DNA of 64,000 nucleotides from assembly GCA_037833965.1 (NCBI GenBank), contig AP031358.1, forward strand, positions 22,080,001 through 22,144,000, given 5' to 3'. A model generated the notes under the pieces. It saw only the letters and a program-made list of their open reading frames with translations. It had not been told where the DNA came from and searched no databases. The stretch comes from Marchantia polymorpha subsp. ruderalis (taxonomy: Eukaryota > Streptophyta > Marchantiopsida > Marchantiales > Marchantiaceae). Every line of letters begins with the position of its first letter. Positions within the stretch are counted from its first letter, which is position 1. Position numbers and translations under genes: made by a program. Shown in pieces: positions 2,431-58,223 of the stretch.

Positions 2431-5400
2431 CTGATAAGGGTGACAGTGGTCTGCTCACGGACTATTACGGCGCAGTGATTGTCAGGTAGGTTCTGCATTG
2501 TACTGGACACCTTCACTGTGGGCATAAAGTTTACAGCTTTTGCAGAGTTATTGATCGAGTACACTGTTTGTTTGCGTTCTGGCGCACAGTAAGAAGCCAG
2601 CTTCTAAACGCACGTGGGAACCCGTGAATGATACTCCTCTTGCAGATTGTCCACCAGGAGTCGTTAGACGTTTTCATGTCCGTATATCGTACGACTACGT
2701 CTGGACATTGCCCAATGAATTCTCCTCTTCACAGTTTTCGTGGACTGGAATTCAACCTTTACGATTCTGGTCTGGTCCTTTCCAGGCTCAGGAACAGTTT
2801 CCATTTGATTCCTCTATACCCCTTGAACACTACTCCGTTCTTGAAAGTCGTAGTCTATCATCCCAGTATCTACAATCCCATCAGTACTCATTCAGAGCTT
2901 GCATCTGTTCAGGTCAGATTTCTACGCACTTGACTTTCCACGAGTCCTCTGCAGTCTCCTCTTGCTTTACTGATCTCAGAACTTTGGTTGCTTGTGTACG
3001 TGAGGCTTCCTTGACAGATCATTAGTCAGTATGAAGCTGAACATACCTGAACATACCTTAGTACTGTTGCATATCTGGCTGAGGGATATGGTTTTCGCCA
3101 TGGCACTACTGCAGGACTCCTCTCACGAGGTAACCTGTTTCCATAAGGTAGTAAGAGACACCGAACTTGTATGCACCGTATGGTGGAAGTCATTGGACAA
3201 GGGAAGTTCACTAGGCCAAATGTTACTTTCCCTTCTACTTCTATCGTTGCACAGCTTGACCCATAGCTAAAGCCTGAGTTCCGAAGGTCGGACTTGGCAA
3301 GGAATTTCAACAACACCATTTAAATGTCATAACTCAAACCGTTGATTTGAATCTGCACATAAGCTTTTATATTTATGATAAACTAAAACAAATATTTTCA
3401 TGATCCAGTTTCATCGTTAAATATCCTACACATAGTCCCAATATATAGCACGCTAAGTTTTAACATTAAACGTTGGTATAACTAAGGACCTTTAGAAGTG
3501 TATAGATACTCATACGAAGTTGTTAACACATTTTTCATTTAACATTTTCAGTGACTAAGTTTCTATAACTCTGCCCGAAGTGCGAGATCACAAAAGTACA
3601 TCATTTTTATGCACAAAAGTCATTGACGCAGTCCCACATATAACATAGAACTATTGTAGTGTAGTTAGGATTCAACATAGCTGAGTATCTGACCAGTGAG
3701 CAAGATATAATCTACAATTAATATCACAAAACACGTATTAAAAATTTTATTGATGACTTTATTGGTTATTGACGTATAGTAGTGTATGGATTATAAGATT
3801 CAACGTTATCCTTCAGATTTTAGACAGTAATTTTTGAGTTCATCCGATATTGTATTTTTAAGAAGCATAAATTAATGAGAAATCTCGACCTTTTTAATGG
3901 TTATTTTAAATAAAAGTTGGATTTTATTTATCAAATATAGTTTCCAAGAATTATGAAAAGATCTTAAGACAAATTGTAAATATTTTTTACAAATTGATTT
4001 AGATGTTCTAAAGCAGCGTTGAATATGTAATAATTTATCAATGTAAACTAGTTTTTTCTGACTCATTTCGATTGTTGATTTAGTATTTTTCGTAAAGCTA
4101 TCTATCTTTAGTTAAAAAAGATGACACTATTGAGATATGTGTGTATATATTTCGATTGACAGACAAGTGTTATTTTTTTAAATAAAAGTTGAGTGCTAGT
4201 TATCCCTCACTTAGGCTAATTAGACTTCACCCTAGTATGCGATCTCATCTGATTTTCGAACACCTATAGTTGCTATTGCGCCCCTATTACAACCTTGCAT
4301 CGACCAACAAAAGAACTGAGTATATTGCACTGACCAATAAGAAAATTACATATACTAGAGTGAAGGCTAAGTAGCCCTAAGTGAAGTATAACTCATCGCC
4401 TCCTAAATAAAACCATGGACTAATTTAAAAAGATTTGTCTCTGAGTATTATATGGTCAACATTATACGTATGTTCATCGTCACATCAATATGCATATGGA
4501 GGTGAAAAAACAAAAATTACATAGATATCAAATTCAAATTATGACATGGATAGGTTGTGTGAGTACATGAGAGCTTGTAACTTTGCAAGCCGGTCACATT
4601 CAATCATGGACCATGATCACATTTAGCATATGGGATGAACAATCTTCATAGGCTTTTTGAAATATAAATAGTTAAAATATCATAAAATATGCAATTTTGA
4701 TAGAGTATTTTTCTTTTAGCTTATTTCCAATTTCTTGTAACTCGACGTAAAAGTCACGAAAGGAGCAATTGGATGAATAACTTTACATGAAGAAGAGTAA
4801 TAATCCTTTACTCTTTACACTGACTTTGTGTTAGATTTCATTACTTTGTCCGAATTTTGTTATCCAGTCGCCTTATCTTTGATCCAATGCATGTCTCCTT
4901 CAATCACCACCATTCGATATGGAAGTCGTTTCCTGATTACCTCGCCAACAGATGGTCCGACTTGAGGAAGAAAGGCAGATCTAAACCCCATCAATATCGT
5001 CCACCAAATTATCACCATCTTTGCCATCACTTGGGCATTTTAGCGGCCAGCAATTACACTCCTCTCAAGTCCAAACAAACCCGCCAGTCCTGCCTTACAT
5101 GTTCATGTTCGCTCTCGCTATAGATAGAACAATTATAATATCTCATGGTTGACAATTTGTTGTACTATTGTGTTCTGTCTGGATATGTTCCAGCACCTGA
5201 AGAATACAGGCAATAACATGCGACCTCCAAACCCCAAAGAACGATTGATTGGCGAATAAGCAACAGCATATCCAGAAACCAGTGCGAATCATCCTCAGCC
5301 ATTTCTCATGTTCTCAAATAGAATATAAATATTCTTTTAACTATTATTACAAAGAAGTTGACATTGGCAAAAAGTAGAAAATCACCACACAAATCCTGAT

Positions 5401-37560: not shown

Positions 37561-38423
37561 ACGCATATTCATCCAGTCGTGCTGCGCAGCGGGTCCCCTG
37601 GTCGACGAGCAAGACTTACTTCTTGAGGCCTCGCGGTGCGTGTATCGTCGGGAGAGATAGAGAGAGGGTGCGCGATAGAGAAGCGGCGAGGGAGGGTCGT
37701 TCGACGGAGCGGGCGTGACGAGTTTTTTTTTGCGCGCACGAGAGAGCGCGCAGGGACAGATTGGGCCCGCGTAGCGTAGCCCTCGCAGCGCGGAAGAAGT
37801 GACATTGTGCGAATTGGCTGCTTCTTCTAGGTTTCGGAGGCGAGATTGAGGCGTCGGAAGTGTCGGGGTTGCCCGCCGGTCGATGCGCTTTGCCTCGCTC
37901 GCAGTCGAGGCGGCAGCGGAGGAGGCTCGTGGGCGAGTCGACGAGCATGGGGTCAGTGGCATTGTGCATTCAACCGGAGGTATGAAGGCCGCAGGTCTCT
38001 GAGCAGATTGTCTCGGAAGGATCTGCGATCAGGCCCCCCGGTGGTGCTCTGCCCGCGGCTCCGCGCGTTTGAGACGAGTGCGCACTCGTTTCCGTAGTGG
38101 TCCCAGCTCCGGAAGCTGTAATATTATGTCTTTTAAAGGTGGAGGGCCTTGATATTCAACAGGTGATGCGGAGGAAAGGAAGAGAAAGGGTTCTCCGGAA
38201 CGTATCCGAGTTCTGAAACCCTTCGTGACAGCTGCACCGGTGCTTCGGCGTGGAATGATCACCTCGCCTCCCGTCGTCCAGCGCAAGCGAGGCTAAGAGC
38301 CTCCGAGAGTTGGTTTGCTTTGGGAGCGCTGCAGCTCTGCAGGGCTTCAATAATAGTTAGAAGAGGACAGCCCCGTCTGTGGTCGCTGCTGTCGACAGGT
38401 TGCCCGGCGCATCCCTCGAGAAG

Positions 38424-41277
38424 ATGCCACCAAACTTCGATTTTGTGGATTGGTGGAACAAAGAATCGCACAGAGGAACACCCGTGGTCGTGAAGATGGA
38501 GAATCCGAATTGGTCCATGCTCGAACTGGAAAGCCCTAAGACTCCCTTCGCCAACAGCGAGAAGGATAAGGGGAAAAATGCCAAGCAGCTCACCTGGGTC
38601 CTTCTGCTCAAGGCTCACCGCGCAGCAGGATGTTTGGCGTGGATGGCTTTGGGTCTGTGGACGGTTTTGAATGCGATTAAGAAGCGGCTAATTCTGAGGC
38701 AGGGAGTTGCTCCTCAATCCGACAAGCCGCACAAGGGGAAACTTTACAAGTTCATTACAGGTTTCTTGACTTTCGCCGTGTGTATGCTGGTGTTTGAGAT
38801 CGCCGCTCACCTTATGGGATGGCACTTCAGTCGCCCTCAATTCCACATGCCCAACTCCCTCTCTCTCCAAGGCCTCCTTCAGACCGTCTATCAGACGTGG
38901 GTCTTCGTCAGGTTGAAATACATTGCCCCGCCTCTCCAAATGCTTGCGGATGGGTGCATTGTGCTGTTCCTGATCCAGTCGGCCGACAGAGTGATCCTCT
39001 GCCTGGGATGCGCCTGGATCAAGATCAAGGATCTGAAGCCCATTCCGAAAGTGGCCTCGCTCGAGTCGGATGATGCGGAAAATCCCGATGCCGGATACCC
39101 CATGGTTCTGTTGCAGATTCCAATGTGTAACGAGAGAGAGGTATGCACGCACTGAACAGCTTGACGGATTGTGAAATTAGGGCTTTTCGTTGTAGAGAGA
39201 CGCGGACATCGCGTGATGCGCTTGTTGGAACTGGTGACTGCCACTTTAGTGTTGTTTCCCTCTGTTATACACTTGTGCCCTCGTTTGTTCTTGAAGAAGC
39301 TGAGTTGAAGTGAATGCCTGGCAGGTCTACGAGCAATCCATATCAGCTGTCTGCCAAATCGAGTGGCCAAGACACCGCATGCTGGTGCAAGTTTTGGATG
39401 ATTCCGATGACGAGGATACCCAGATGCTTATCAAGGCTGAAGTCCAGAAGTGGCACATGAAGGGCGTCAATATTGTATACAGACATCGAGTCATCCGAAC
39501 CGGTTACAAGGCTGGAAACTTGAAGTCTGCCATGAACGTTGACTATGTCAAGGATTACGAATTTGTAACTATATTTGATGCCGATTTTCAGCCCAAGTCC
39601 GATTTCTTGAAGAGAACTATCCCTCATTTCAGGGTAACTCCCCTCCTCTAGCTTCCTCAGTGTCTCGTGTTCGTCTTTGATGATGCCATTCGTGCAATGG
39701 CTGAAGTTAGCCTGCCATCTTAACAATTTATCGGCAGCATCTGACGTCCTCCTTGGGATCAACTTTTTGCAGGATCAACCCGAGCTGGCATTGGTCCAGT
39801 CCAGGTGGACATTTGTGAACAGAGATGAGAATCTTCTTACTCGCCTTCAAAACATCAATCTGTCCTTCCACTTTGAGGTTGAGCAGCAAGTGAATGGTAT
39901 CTTTATCAACTTTTTCGGCTTCAATGGAACTGCCGGGGTGTGGAGAATCAAGGCATTGGAGGATTCAGGTGGTTGGTTGGAGAGGACCACTGTCGAGGAT
40001 ATGGATGTTGCAGTCAGGGCACATTTGAAGGGATGGAAGTTCGTCTTCTTGAACGATGTTGAGGTGCGTGTCTCGTAATCTGCATCTCCTTGTTCACGGC
40101 AGTATTCGTTAGAATTCGCAAGAGCGTTGGTCCTCAGTCATGCATATTTTGGAGACTTACGTCCAAATGCAGTTCACCTGCATCTATCCTGAGAACTATG
40201 GATGACTATGTACGATCTGTTGATGACAAATCTCAGTAGACTGGTGATGTGATCGTCGTCCAATTGTCGTGGGAAGTTATTTGTCACCGTTCCCTGAGAC
40301 CTTCGAAATTGCAGTGCTTGTGTGAATTGCCAGAGTCGTACGAGACCTACAGGAAGCAGCAGCACCGTTGGCACTCCGGTCCCATGCAGCTGTTCCGACT
40401 GTGCTTACCAGACATCATCACATCTAAGGTAAGAACCGACAGTTGTGATTGATCGCATGGCGGATGTCTTGTTTTGGAGTAGTATCTCGAAGCAGTTGGT
40501 GGTCAAATGCAGCATCATCATCCTGTTCAACCATGGGGGCTTGTCTTGAGTCCTTGGGCCCGTCTTACCATGCAGTCGATCAAGGATGTCAAGGTTCTAA
40601 TTCCGCGTTTTCGTCCCTATGGCCTGCAGATCTCGATTTGGAAGAAAGGGAACTTGATATTCCTCTTTTTCCTCCTGAGGAAGTTGATTTTGCCGTTCTA
40701 TTCTTTCACCCTGTTCTGCATTATTCTTCCCTTGACCATGTTCGTGCCTGAAGCTCAGCTGCCTGCCTGGGTGGTTTGCTACATCCCTGCCATCATGTCT
40801 TTCATGAACGTGTTTCCGGCACCTAAATCCTTCCCCTTCCTTGTGCCATATCTATTGTTTGAGAATACAATGTCAGTGACCAAGTTCAATGCCATGATCT
40901 CTGGATTGTTCCAAATGAGCAGCGCCTACGAGTGGGTTGTGACCAAGAAATCTGGAAGAGCTTCCGAGACTGACCTTGCCAGTCTTGTCGAGAAGGAGAC
41001 TCCACAACCTCCCAGTATCCGACACAACCGGGGTACTTCAGAGTCTGGCCTTGATGTTCTAGCGAGATTACAGGAGCAGCAACCAGTTGCGCCGGTTGTT
41101 GTCAAGAAGAAGGTGAACAGGTTGTACAGAAAGGAGTTGGCACTGTCCTTCCTGCTGCTGACAGCAGCTGCCAGGAGTTTGCTGTCGGCTCAAGGGGTTC
41201 ACTTCTACTTTCTACTGTTTCAAGGGGTTTCGTTCCTGGTTGTCGGCCTCGATCTGATTGGCGAGCAAGTAAGCTGA
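38424..41277 (+). CDS. CSLC: Cellulose synthase-like C (xyloglucan beta-1,4-glucan synthase)
   Basis: CSLC enzymes are Golgi membrane GT2 glycosyltransferases that use UDP-glucose to make the glucan backbone of xyloglucan. Five exons join with every junction in phase 0: 38424-39140, 39325-39633, 39773-40063, 40315-40428, 40630-41277, giving 692 residues (Arabidopsis CSLC4 is about 670). Catalytic landmarks are intact: DDSDD at residues 264-268, DADFQP at 324-329, TVEDMD at 415-420, QQHRW at 454-458. ECLCELPES spans the exon 3-4 junction. Membrane segments are predicted near 111-131, 172-199, 484-516, 524-550 and two near the C-terminus (645-687). The N-terminal FDFVDWW and [13 protein letters not shown] are typical of CSLC. 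I chose ATG 38424 because upstream in-frame codons offer only a GTG. No breaks are seen. Which CSLC paralogue it is cannot be decided. Confidence 0.95.
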
Positions 41278-51864: not shown

Positions 51865-54800
51865 TCAATTTCGCGACAAAATCCCAGTTCTAAAACCTTT
51901 CGTCATGCACTCCTCGCACACCCATGCATGCCCACCTAATTCTACTCTCACGTATTTCACCTGATACAACTTGAAGATCTTCGAATAGTTAATAGGCGCA
52001 AGTGTTTGCTGAATCCTCAGCCATGCTTCTTTAAGTTCCATGCTTTCCCTACCTTTTAAAATTGCACTACGATCACTACGGCTAATGTCATCTAGTTTAA
52101 GAATATCAGATTTTAAATCTGCGAAGTCTGGAATAGCTTGGCCCAACCCGAGGGTCTTACCCAGTGCAGCCTTTGCAGCATAATACAAGACCTTGTAAAA
52201 AATTTCAATAGTTTTCCTAATCCACTTCTTATTGTATCGATCCACGCGTATCTTCAATCCTTCTTGATCTTTCACAGTGTGAACCCCAGTCGTCGACTCA
52301 CACATCAAGTGTAGTCGAACAATTGTCCCGACATGCAGACTTGCGCTGATCTTATATAAACTGTTAACATCATCCGTAACGTAAGGTCGCTTGGGGGTTC
52401 CAGTCTGCCGAAACTCTTGAGAATACTCAATAATCCTGTCCACTTTAGACATGAACTCACTCAGCTTTGACTGCAGTTCTTGTTGCAAAGAGAGTACCTG
52501 TTTCATCTTCATCTCCCATCTCTGCAGATCGCTCTGCACTGATCTCAACCTCTCATCAACACCATCAACCTTTTTTTCTACCCGATCAATACTTTCCAAA
52601 ACAAGTCGGATTTCACGATTTTCCACACTTGTGCTCACCAGACTTAAGCAACTGGATGAAGGTCGATTGGAGTCTTTCATATCAGGAAAATTTGAATTGG
52701 TAACCATGTTATCATTTTCAGGGTAAGAATGAATCAAATCATTGTTCACTTCGATTACACCTTGCTGCAATGACTCCAGTTGTTGCATAAGGCCTTGCTG
52801 CAGTGACTCCAATTGTTGCATTTGCTTCTGTCGGATCTCATTCACAATCGCCTCCACATCGCCCTTCCACAACAAATCCCTCGCTTTTTTGAATATAACC
52901 TCTGTGATGTGCCCTTCAATAGAGGGCCAAGGGTGCTCATGGCTGAACAAGTCTTCCTCCTTCATCAAGTGAAACCTATCCAACGCAATATCCTCAAGTT
53001 TGTCATTGATGTCTTGAATGAAGTTTGATTTGAGCTCCTCGATCAGAATGGCTCCTCTGAGATGAATGGGAATCAGCATTTTCACGCAATGTGTTTGGAT
53101 CACACCGAGCACTAACGCCACCCCGGGACAGCCTTTCGGTGATGCGCAAAATGATATCAACTCCTGGACGATATGCTTCATCACATATTTAATAGCCACC
53201 TCTCTTGACTTATGGTCCGAGCATAACATCAGAACATCCACGTAATTGCGAGACGTTCCTTGCTCCAGATATATCTGGTGCCCATCAAGGAAAAGTCGCA
53301 GATAATGTCGAGAGCAGGTCAGAGTCTTCTTGGAAACATGCATCTCCGATATCAACTTTCGTCTCATGAACATCTACAATGATACAAAATTTGGTAAATA
53401 TTGAGCTACATATTCCAAAAATTGAATTCAACTCATGAAAAGGAAACACTTCATTCATTGAACACAAGTTACAATCATAACTCATCGCATTCACTTTTCT
53501 CTCAGTTTATAAGAAATCACCTGGAAGCGTGGGAAAAAAGCATCGGTCAATGACATTGTTCTGCCATCTTGGCATTGGATCCGGATGCCGACAAACTGTG
53601 AAGTCTCAACCCTAGTTTCCCAAGCCAATTCTTGACGATTCTGTTCATCTGTGCTTGCATGCTCAGGTATGAAGGAGGGAATGAAATACTGAGAAGTATC
53701 TTCCACCTTGAAACACAAATCTAAATTGAAAAGTATGTCTTCAAGCACCTGTCTGTCCACACGTCTCTCTCCATGTGATTGCTTTCGCTGAAACTCCTTT
53801 ATCAACCGAGCAAAGACACTCTCGCTCACAAATCCGTCCTTGCTTGTGTATGACTCACTTGATATCGATTTGCTAGAAGACACGGACTCATGAGCTTGAA
53901 AGTCTTGACCTAGAGCTACAAGCTCGCCCAATAATGTATTGGTGAGCCAGTTTGGATCTACAATGATGTAATCAAGGTTGGGAATAGAAATTATAGATCC
54001 TACGTCATTCAAATAAGATATGATTGATGTCATTATCTTTGAATGCTCAACGGTGCCAGCAGAAGATGATGAAATAAAGGTCAAGCTAGGGGCGCAGAAT
54101 TCATGAAATTTTTTTGATGGCCAAAGAGGGAAACTTCTGATCTCCTTGGTCTTTGTAACCAACGAAGAAGAAAGTTGTGAACACAATTGAGGAACCTGTG
54201 GAGATTTTTCACTTAACAATCTATCAAAGATCTCAGAAATCACCTTTTTGAGAGGAAGAACTTGTTTCTTGCTTTGACCATTCACATGAAACAACTCTTG
54301 AACAGGGTGCAGATCCACAAAATTTGCAAATCTTTTTCTGAGGTCCTTGACTATGCACTCAGCCCAATTTAGAGAGCTGTATATGCCTTTATCCTTGTGT
54401 GAAATCACAACAAGAACTTGAGGAAGATTGTGTCCCGTGACCCTAGTGCTGGATGTGATGAAACTCAACCATTCCTCCAACTCTGATTGAAAACAAGATT
54501 CTGGTTTGTTCAAAGATCTTATCTGACAGAAGGGGCTATAGACAAATAAAAAAACACAAAAATTGCTACTTTGAGGGAAGAGTACATTTTGAAGGGTACG
54601 GAAAATCCATTGTCCTGCAAGATCCCAAATTGAGATTTGCCTTTTCTCATCGTTTTGCAAGAACTCCACTTCTATACCTTTTGTTCTCCTCAATTCAGCC
54701 CATTTGTTTCCTAGCCAACTTTTGCCTTCAACTATCCTCATCAGGGTTTGACGCAATTTGGTCTTGCCTGCAGATTGAATAAAGAGAATCACAACAAATA

Positions 54801-56772
54801 CAACTTGTTACTTTGAGATAAGTTTACAAAATACTTAATCATATTTTGTAAATAAACAGGAATTGGAAAAAATTTCAAATTTCACATCAAAATTTGAGAA
54901 TTCCAATAAAATTTATATCATAATGTTATTCAGAATTCACATTTATTTGCATTTTGGTTTTCTTTTTATACTTAAAAAAAAAAGTTTTTACAAAATTGCA
55001 AATACATCTGGTTTAAAAAAAAACTTCATAATTTAATCTTAACTTTTTTAAATGTAAAACCTTAGATTGCTAGTTCAAATAACTAAGAAGTTAGGGAGCG
55101 CGTTACCTGCTCTAGGAGAGCCGCATAAGAAGAGTCGACCAGCTTTTGCATCTCCAAATGTTAATTTGGCTTCTCTGAATATGGACATGTAGACGGCCCG
55201 CTTCTGGTTCTGCTTGAGGGCCTCCTGAATCAGCCCCTCTTTTCCGTCAGTTGCCCATGGGGTTCCTGAGACATCTATTTCCTGAAGAGTCAAGTTGACT
55301 TGCAGTAGGCCCATCAGGTCTCTAAACTCCTCTTCGTCGAGCTCCCTCAAATGCAAATCCAAGTGGGTGAGACTTGTGTTCCCTCGCAGGCACAAAAGCA
55401 GGTCCTTCCATACTCGCTTCCAAACATCTTTGCTTCCAATTACTAATTCGAGTCTCTTAAGGACGGAAGTTTCTCCAGTTTGTCCATTCATAGACAGGAT
55501 ACCTTCCGTTCTATCCTGGTAGGGTTGTGTCCTAAAATCCCATATTCTGAAAGATTTCAGAGATTTGATTTCCCCGCGCAGTACCCTGCCTAATAGGTTT
55601 AATGAAAACATCAACTCCGACTCGTGGGAAAATTCTTGTGAAAGCTCCAATGTGGGATCCTTGGCTTCGGAGCTAGCAGCATACGCAAGACCTTCTATTG
55701 ACTCATGCTTATATGTATCATCTTGGTCTAACCAAAGGCTTACATTTATAGTTGTTGCTGTAGCATTGTCACGTATCACTTCGCCGAGCTGGCGCCATTC
55801 CTCAGGACTCATCCGCAAGTAATTCAACGTCACCCCCTTCAATGATCGGTTGGAAGTAAGAAGTTCCCTGAAACAGCTTCCGAGTCTATCCATGTTACTC
55901 AGCCAAAGACGTTCAATGGATCGGTTGCCATCATCTCGGGCCAAAGCGTTCAGCAACAAGGCCGCTCCCCAGTCTACCTGCTCTAAGTACAATTCCTTCA
56001 AAGACGAGCTCTGGATCAAAGCCTTGGACAGGATTCCAACGTCCTCCTCCTCCACGTCCTCCACGTCCTCCGTACCGGCTAAACTCAACGTTTCTAATCG
56101 AGTAGCACTGTTGATTATGTCAGCCACATGCTTCACCGCATTCGAGACTAGTTTTAAAGACTGGAGTTTAGAATCGGAATTTCCTCGCAGTCCTGAGGCG
56201 AGATGCAACCAACATCTGGCACTCAAATTGGTATTAAATATTTCCAATTCTTGTACGCTAGAGGAATTCAGAATTCTCCCTATCTGTGAACACAAGCTCT
56301 CCACTTCCGCATCTGAACTCCATTTCAAATTCTGGAGGCATATCGATCCTAGAACGGTGCTAGATTTAAATCCTCTGAAAACAACCTCCCACTCACTTTC
56401 CGTAAACCTCGATATATCTCGACCACAAATATCGTCCACCTTTAGACTCTCAAAGGTATTGCAGCTGCCGATTGCCTCCAGCACTCGAAGGCGCACTTGC
56501 CTTCTCCACCCTGTGATCGTGGAGAGCGGTGCAATCTCCGGGAAGAAATCCCAAAATTCTTCCTCGCTTAAGTCGGGAAGCCCCGTGATAGGCTCGCCTT
56601 CTCCTTCCAGACGCCGTATAAGGTCCTGGACAGCGGAGGGAAGCTCCGGTTCCTCGTCTGCAGAGTCCATTCCCCGTCTCTCAGCAGCGTGACTGACTAT
56701 GGACTCACCTGCACCTTCCATTTCTCTCCTCCACTCCCGCTTTGTAAGAAACGTTTGCTTCTTGGCATGCAC
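51865..56772 (-). CDS. LRR-Roc-COR (Roco family) protein with coiled-coil C-terminal half
   Basis: Roco proteins are large GTPases in which a Ras-like Roc domain is fused to a COR dimerisation domain. Three exons on the minus strand, 56772-55107, 54767-53521 and 53373-51865, join in frame to 1473 residues. Exon 1 encodes a leucine-rich-repeat region of the ribonuclease-inhibitor type (about residues 100-535). The P-loop GSPRAGKT (551-558) is split by the first intron in phase 1. Then follow DLAGQ (604-608), SHKD (678-681) in the guanine-specificity position, and a COR core with DPNWL (826-830). Exon 3 (972-1473) holds an unassigned region, a duplicated QLESLQQG coiled coil (about 1157-1178), a second coiled coil (about 1220-1285) and a CEEC pair near the end. 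No kinase domain is seen. I chose the first ATG; MEGAGES at residue 18 is an alternative. Signalling role is inference. Confidence 0.85.
52760..52825 (-). repeat. 33-bp in-frame tandem duplication inside the Roco coding sequence
   Basis: Two 33-bp units with few differences encode QLESLQQGLMQ and QLESLQQGVIE. The 11-residue period suits a hendecad coiled coil, so the duplication lengthens the helix without breaking the frame. Confidence 0.85.
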
Positions 56773-57911: not shown

Positions 57912-58223
57912 TTTCAACCTCAAACATTAGAATGAAATCAGATTTCGTCCGTGCTAAGAGCACTCTTGCTTGTTTATCACGGCGTATAGAACACGACAGA
58001 GCCAGCATAATTACTGCTAAGGTCAACATCAATCTCCGAAGAATTTGCAATTTTTTAATCTCAATCTCAATTTTTTCAACCTCAAACATTAGAATGAAAT
58101 CAGATTTCGTCCGTGCTAAGAGCACTCTTGCTTGTTTATCACGGCGTATAGAACACGACAGAGCCAGCATAATTACTGCTAAGGTCAACATCAATCTCCG
58201 AAGAATTTGCAATTTTTTAATCT
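57912..58223. repeat. Perfect 150-bp direct repeat (two copies, 12-bp spacer)
   Basis: 57912-58061 and 58074-58223 appear identical base for base, separated by CAATCTCAATTT-like spacer. The 162-bp period is a multiple of three, so frames stay open through both copies on both strands (plus 57899-58264, minus 57892-58257, each 121 codons). Identity points to a very recent duplication. I recognise no domain in either frame. Confidence 0.95.

Follow-up and report, generated by a model that had tools for sequence, protein, structure and literature searches.

A greatly expanded Roco (LRR-Roc-COR) gene family in Marchantia polymorpha with an NLR-like pattern of evolution

What could a protein combining leucine-rich repeats (LRR), a Roc GTPase domain and a COR domain do in a liverwort? 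The question is raised by a gene on the minus strand (56721 to 51865) of a 64,000-nucleotide stretch of the Marchantia polymorpha subsp. ruderalis genome (contig AP031358.1, positions 22,080,001 to 22,144,000), called here the window. The most probable answer is that the gene codes for an LRR-Roc-COR switch, probably intracellular, which belongs to a greatly expanded and tandemly duplicating plant Roco family working like the NLRs. The first-pass annotation of the window had guessed at an immune-type or scaffold switch, and an immune-type switch now gains strong, though indirect, support because the genome contains about 160 related loci, arranged in arrays, in which the LRR exon is positively selected and the other exons are constrained.

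The gene is composed of three exons (56721-55107, 54767-53521 and 53373-51865) which, joined by GT-AG splices, yield one open frame of 1456 residues:

55107 to 56721, minus strand: exon 1, with the ATG, an acidic N-terminus, a ribonuclease inhibitor (RI)-like LRR region (about residues 124-510) and the start of Roc up to GSPRAG
54768 to 55106, minus strand: intron 1, GT-AG, splitting the glycine codon of the P-loop
53521 to 54767, minus strand: exon 2, with the remaining Roc (from K540), COR-A and the beginning of COR-B
53374 to 53520, minus strand: intron 2, GT-AG, 147 bp
51865 to 53373, minus strand: exon 3, with the putative rest of COR-B, a linker, a coiled coil, a C-terminal module (CTD) and the stop

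The intron calls rest on the conservation of the splice sites across loci L001-L028 of the same genome. The first donor is GT in 19 of 19 loci and the first acceptor AG in 27 of 27; for intron 2, the donor is GT in 27 of 28 and the acceptor AG in all 27 testable cases. Judged by its open frame and these conserved sites, the gene is real, and the complete three-exon structure proposed at first stands. The length of 1473 residues and the start at position 56772 that went with it do not, as this position reads GTG and the first in-frame ATG lies at 56721.

Assignment of the protein to the Roco family can be followed domain by domain. The sequence motifs on which the first reading was based are intact, namely the P-loop GSPRAGKT (residues 534-541), DLAGQ (587), SHKD (661) and the COR motif DPNWL (809). 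The corresponding features are:

54610 to 54624, minus strand: switch II motif DLAGQ
54391 to 54402, minus strand: G4-like motif SHKD
55192 to 56352, minus strand: LRR region, with ten LxxLxLxx motifs (spacings of 23-33 residues, one of 94) and ribonuclease inhibitor profile matches

Pfam detects Roc in the window protein above its curated cut-off (E 9.6e-7). COR-A is matched with E 9.9e-6 and 26 bits, under the cut-off of 35.3 bits, which is exceeded by the three-exon relative L010 (48.1 bits) and also passed at three places of the main family, neighbours included in frame. Additional evidence comes from a separate class of Roco genes of the same genome, each contained in a single open reading frame (ORF). 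This class comprises eight loci and two partial matches, with open frames of 695-1355 residues (C6:14.796, C6:15.566, C4:28.299, C3:10.878 and C4:20.968-21.135 Mb); in a tree of exon 2 it is split from the three-exon family with a support of 100/100, a value to be read with a long-branch warning. An exon-2 profile of 23 rows, including four single-ORF Rocos, matches LRRK2 (9.1e-10), 4wnr (1.7e-8) and the Chlorobium tepidum Roco 3dpu (1.6e-5). The strength of these matches is due to the single-ORF rows, since the control profile without them gives 4wnr at 1e-4, Rab35 at 7e-4 and 3dpu at 0.097, and LRRK2 is absent from its match list at E 0.1, which weakens the claim. There is also a direct bridge: the single-ORF locus L031, whose Roc is above the cut-off, finds exon 2 of the window gene with E 6.7e-13 over 393 residues. 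By these steps, through L031 and the three-exon relatives, the Roc-COR homology of the window gene is firm. The lysine and threonine of the P-loop, as well as W47, D48 and G51, are invariant in 23 of 23 exon-2 rows, those of the single-ORF class included.

The LRR region is less evident from the window gene itself, exon 1 alone yielding only LRR_4 with E 0.59 and, as a single sequence, no Pfam match at 0.01. An exon-1 profile that includes divergent rows matches ribonuclease inhibitor (E 5e-13) and also the LRRs of NLRP proteins. In the control without the divergent rows the ribonuclease inhibitor match falls to 4.1e-6 (best row 9fqr_Km, 6.1e-8), which weakens the claim. In terms of sequence, the protein therefore has what a Roco requires: a Roc GTPase domain bearing the P-loop and the switch motifs, COR directly after Roc, and an N-terminal LRR. 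The LRR-Roc-COR order read at first sight is supported accordingly, Roc by Pfam, COR and LRR by the family profiles and the single-ORF bridge. Neither kinase, WD40 nor NB-ARC is in the Pfam list of the window protein at E<=10, in agreement with the first reading as to kinase and WD40. Membership in the plant NLRs is thus rejected for want of an NB-ARC match in that list, and an LRRK-type Roco for want of a kinase match after COR.

The genome searched amounts to 241 Mb in nine contigs, the length of one being 5.6 Mb. A query with exon 2 found at least 101 places, 94 of them without internal stop (101 of 318 candidates scored), and a query with exon 3 at least 85, of which 78 were free of internal stops (85 of 399 candidates scored). 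The merged list contains approximately 162 related loci on contigs C2-C9; it excludes small-GTPase-like rows (including both C1 rows), second pieces and repeats of listed rows; in a few cases its entries may represent halves of one gene, and some single-ORF loci are missing from it. A search for NB-ARC in the same genome gave 66 rows, fragments included (76 of 76 candidates scored). Ninety-one of the 162 Roco loci lie less than 100 kb from another one, compared with a mean of 20 and a maximum of 38 in 200 random placements. The largest groups are those of C5 at 16.81-17.31 Mb (17 loci), C9 at 18.42-18.83 Mb (15) and C5 at 17.48-18.01 Mb (10). All of the first 20 loci in contig order, which were fetched whole, match the exon queries; 13 are stop-free in every exon, and two, with 35-36% in exon 2, form a divergent subfamily. 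In 20/20 the Roc-COR exon is followed by the exon-3 region, which is reduced to a piece of 52 residues in L027 and is displaced and partial in L011.

Two peculiarities were seen among the family members. At C9:18562704-18629261 there are four exon-2 copies with an exact spacing of 21,765 bp and identical scores, either the result of tandem duplication in very recent times or an artefact of the assembly. In L017 (positions 2804-3244; C3:25.456 Mb), a 32-residue PAPS reductase stretch (PF01507, E 6e-8) replaces part of the usual N-terminus in exon 1; PF01507 occurs at three places of the genome, one other of which (C7:5291811) shares the L017 end. This stretch resembles a captured exon or an integrated domain.

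The LRR exon is positively selected and the other exons are constrained, that is, a sensor LRR diversifies on a conserved switch. All omega values were obtained by counting, under the assumption of equal mutation rates, and not from codon models. Parsimony counts on the tree of eight matched genes of the C5 array give omega 1.79 for exon 1 (389 nonsynonymous and 67 synonymous changes, p 3.2e-6), 0.47 for exon 2 (p 5.6e-5) and 0.53 for exon 3 (p 1.1e-7), exon 1 differing from exon 2 with p 1.1e-6 and from exon 3 with p 1.4e-9 (Fisher). Within exon 3 of the same genes, omega is 0.35 in COR-B, 0.52 in the linker plus coil, and 0.66 in the CTD, the latter only marginally below neutral (p 0.059). 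Site tests of the LRR, based on the ten LxxLxLxx motifs, were carried out on 13 array copies: omega is 1.81 at exposed positions (predicted concave strand) and 0.43 at the core leucines, with 2.40 and 0.41 nonsynonymous changes per codon, respectively (Fisher, exposed versus core, p 1.2e-4). Counted pairwise, these 13 copies have values of 1.48 over the exon and 2.10 at the exposed positions. Among distant paralogs, exon 1 has a median dN/dS of 0.69 (11 rows; five loci skipped because of stops or partial matches and five, divergent or broken, omitted), compared with 0.35 in exon 2 and 0.48 in exon 3; by parts, the values are 0.28 in COR-B, 0.30 in Roc and 0.65 in the coil region.

The window gene is also a mosaic of paralogs. 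Its DNA identity to L002, on contig C8, rises from 82.0% in exon 2 to 89.5% in exon 3, and the third-position differences between the two (110/408 and 55/499, respectively) contrast with p 8.5e-10, the smallest value among 20 comparisons, three others being <0.01. The identity steps up in exon 2, close to its nucleotide 1051, and the part of high identity covers intron 2. The mosaic is most simply read as the product of exchange between paralogs.

The half of the protein that follows COR-A deserves separate consideration, since it had been described as an unassigned region of about 500 residues. This was an overstatement, because its first 115 residues or so probably are COR-B, and about 387 residues remain. 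The COR-B reading is based on the single-ORF loci L029-L032, whose rows pass without interruption from COR to the exon-3 region. The features of this half are:

53029 to 53373, minus strand: putative COR-B part of exon 3, residues 955-1069, containing ISFCASPKGCPGV; aligned with L029-L032; omega 0.28 and 0.35
52396 to 52623, minus strand: coiled coil, residues 1205-1280; heptad z 5.8, with a weak match to the p62 coiled coil (E 0.014)
51868 to 52398, minus strand: CTD, residues 1280-1456, with LHLMCE..G.H.V..QEGL, a helical segment and WxCxxC
51907 to 51918, minus strand: CEEC pair, residues 1440-1443

The stretch ISFCASPKGCPGVALVLGV (residues 1027-1045) is likewise placed in COR-B by alignment; no structure match extends into the COR-B part of exon 3. 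Between this part and the coiled coil lies a variable linker. Two coiled coils had been proposed; one is strong, and the next-best region by heptad score is the N-terminus (residues 15-84, z 3.8-4.2) and not the Q-rich stretch near residue 1145. The terminal CEEC pair, within a WVCEEC that begins at residue 1438, is present as described, and both its cysteines are invariant in 23 aligned rows. In this alignment, which leaves out broken or near-identical copies as well as L031 and L032 and reaches down to 18-19% identity, the invariant residues of the CTD are C358, E359, H365, Q370, G372, P415, W484, C486 and C489 (exon-3 numbering). Profile searches, which matched Roc, placed the CTD in no reliably matching PDB or Pfam family, the best Pfam match being ABC_tran_2 (E 0.0057, one of six members). 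The exon-3 profile gave only coiled-coil-like or weak matches in PDB, the best at 0.014. A divergent CTD query against the same genome at E 0.01 found six places, one being the query itself, all within Roco genes. Two of the four single-ORF Rocos fetched (L029 and L030) carry the module; L031 lacks it and ends shortly past COR-B, and L032, also without it, carries a tail in which NQQLVRRD-ESIKR units are repeated.

Plant NLRs are characterized by tandem arrays, mosaic paralogs, a fast-evolving LRR and a conserved nucleotide switch. The window family resembles them in all these respects and differs in that its switch is Roc-COR rather than NB-ARC and in that its LRR is N-terminal and of the RI type. 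It is this evolutionary signature that suggests an immune function. According to this model, the fast-diversifying RI-type LRR would recognize variable ligands, probably pathogen-derived or modified-self; binding would alter the nucleotide state of Roc and bring about COR-mediated dimerization, and the coiled coil together with the conserved WxCxxC module would recruit or form the signaling output.

Several observations weigh against this interpretation. Seven of the 20 loci fetched whole contain stops or are fragmentary. The selection signal goes beyond the concave face, with omega 1.94 in the N-terminal segment before the LRR and 1.65 in the rest of the LRR (13 copies), therefore it is the whole sensor exon that diversifies; exposed positions also show more synonymous changes per codon (0.33 vs 0.18). 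The signal is weaker in pairwise counts over 28 more distant copies, where pN/pS is 0.84 for the whole exon and 1.17 for the exposed positions (interval 0.98-1.41). Switch II is not strictly kept, DLAGQ being altered in L012, L014, L018 and L032. The structure predictions proposed for the C-terminal half were run as AlphaFold models of single sequences, and those of exon 3 (502 residues) and of the last 203 residues have a mean pLDDT of 39 and 41. Finally, hydropathy peaks of 1.82 over 19 residues in the putative COR-B (residues 1039-1057) and of 2.02 in the CTD of L030 make a link to the membrane possible.

The arrays and the LRR diversification would be equally expected of receptors that recognize non-pathogens, in allorecognition, gamete recognition or symbiosis, with the same switch and another ligand or output, and to that extent they also count against an immune role. 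The present tests are neutral between both possibilities. Large diversifying LRR-switch families of plants are mostly immune, and it is only for this reason that non-pathogen recognition is ranked below immunity and considered unlikely. Still less probable is that the genes code for TORNADO1-like developmental signaling proteins that have merely been multiplied. The order LRR-Roc-COR is the same as in plant Tornado1 (excerpt of PMC4104024), and the small single-ORF class could include a developmental gene; however, more than 100 copies and an LRR omega above 1 are at odds with a conserved role in development. A decaying or selfish amplification under relaxed constraint and without shared role is the least credible of all: the 7/20 broken loci, the near-identical and regularly spaced copies and the CTD, which taken alone lies barely below neutrality (0.66, p 0.059), agree with it, but pure relaxation is rejected because exons 2 and 3 and the core leucines (0.43) are constrained, the LRR exon exceeds 1 significantly where relaxation would give about 1 throughout, and 94 of the 101 exon-2 places scored are free of internal stops.

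The NLR-like immune reading has precedents outside land plants. In the excerpts consulted, only flowering plants are said to have ROCO genes, named Tornado1 (PMC4104024), and plants to have one or two, LRR-ROCO being noted in Chara and Klebsormidium (PMC11378527). Arabidopsis TORNADO1 (TRN1) shares with the window protein an RI-like LRR followed by Roc-COR (excerpt of PMC4104024); it differs in its number, one or two genes per plant (excerpt of PMC11378527), and in its leaf-patterning role, compared with about 160 loci and a diversifying LRR here. According to excerpts of PMC11378527, brown algae have 9-47 ROCO genes per species, an expanded family whose LRR sites are positively selected and for which a role in immunity is proposed. 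Each of its LRRs is an exon of its own and undergoes shuffling. The gene structure of this distant lineage differs from that of the window gene, whose LRRs are contained in one exon, whose introns interrupt the P-loop and COR, and which has a distinct CTD. Brown algae thus already offer Roco immune candidates in principle. No land-plant family of such size with a distinct CTD is among the literature matches listed, nor is a bryophyte Roco family named among those obtained from the open-licence literature (Roco, TORNADO1 or Roc-COR with Marchantia, moss or liverwort). LRRK2 and the C. tepidum Roco are related to the window protein by Roc-COR homology, mainly through the single-ORF relatives; LRRK2 differs by its kinase and WD40 domains, and the C. 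tepidum Roco is not known to have such a CTD.

It can be proposed, tentatively and at somewhat less than even chances, that Marchantia has built from Roco GTPases a land-plant receptor repertoire larger than its own NB-ARC set and equipped with its own CTD signaling module, a counterpart to NLR immunity convergent with that of brown algae. If true, a family of more than 100 members with NLR-like evolution would add a class of nucleotide-switch receptors to land-plant immunity, parallel to brown algae, and would allow direct tests of Roco switch roles outside animals, with bearing on sensing and signaling by LRRK2 and other LRR-Roc-COR proteins.

Elsewhere in the window, two long frames on the plus strand (38361-41277), without Pfam match at 0.01, resemble a gene of the cellulose-synthase-like C (CSLC) type. 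A 162-bp unit is found in perfect tandem duplication (1.9 copies) at 57912-58223, some 1.2 kb upstream of the Roco start codon.

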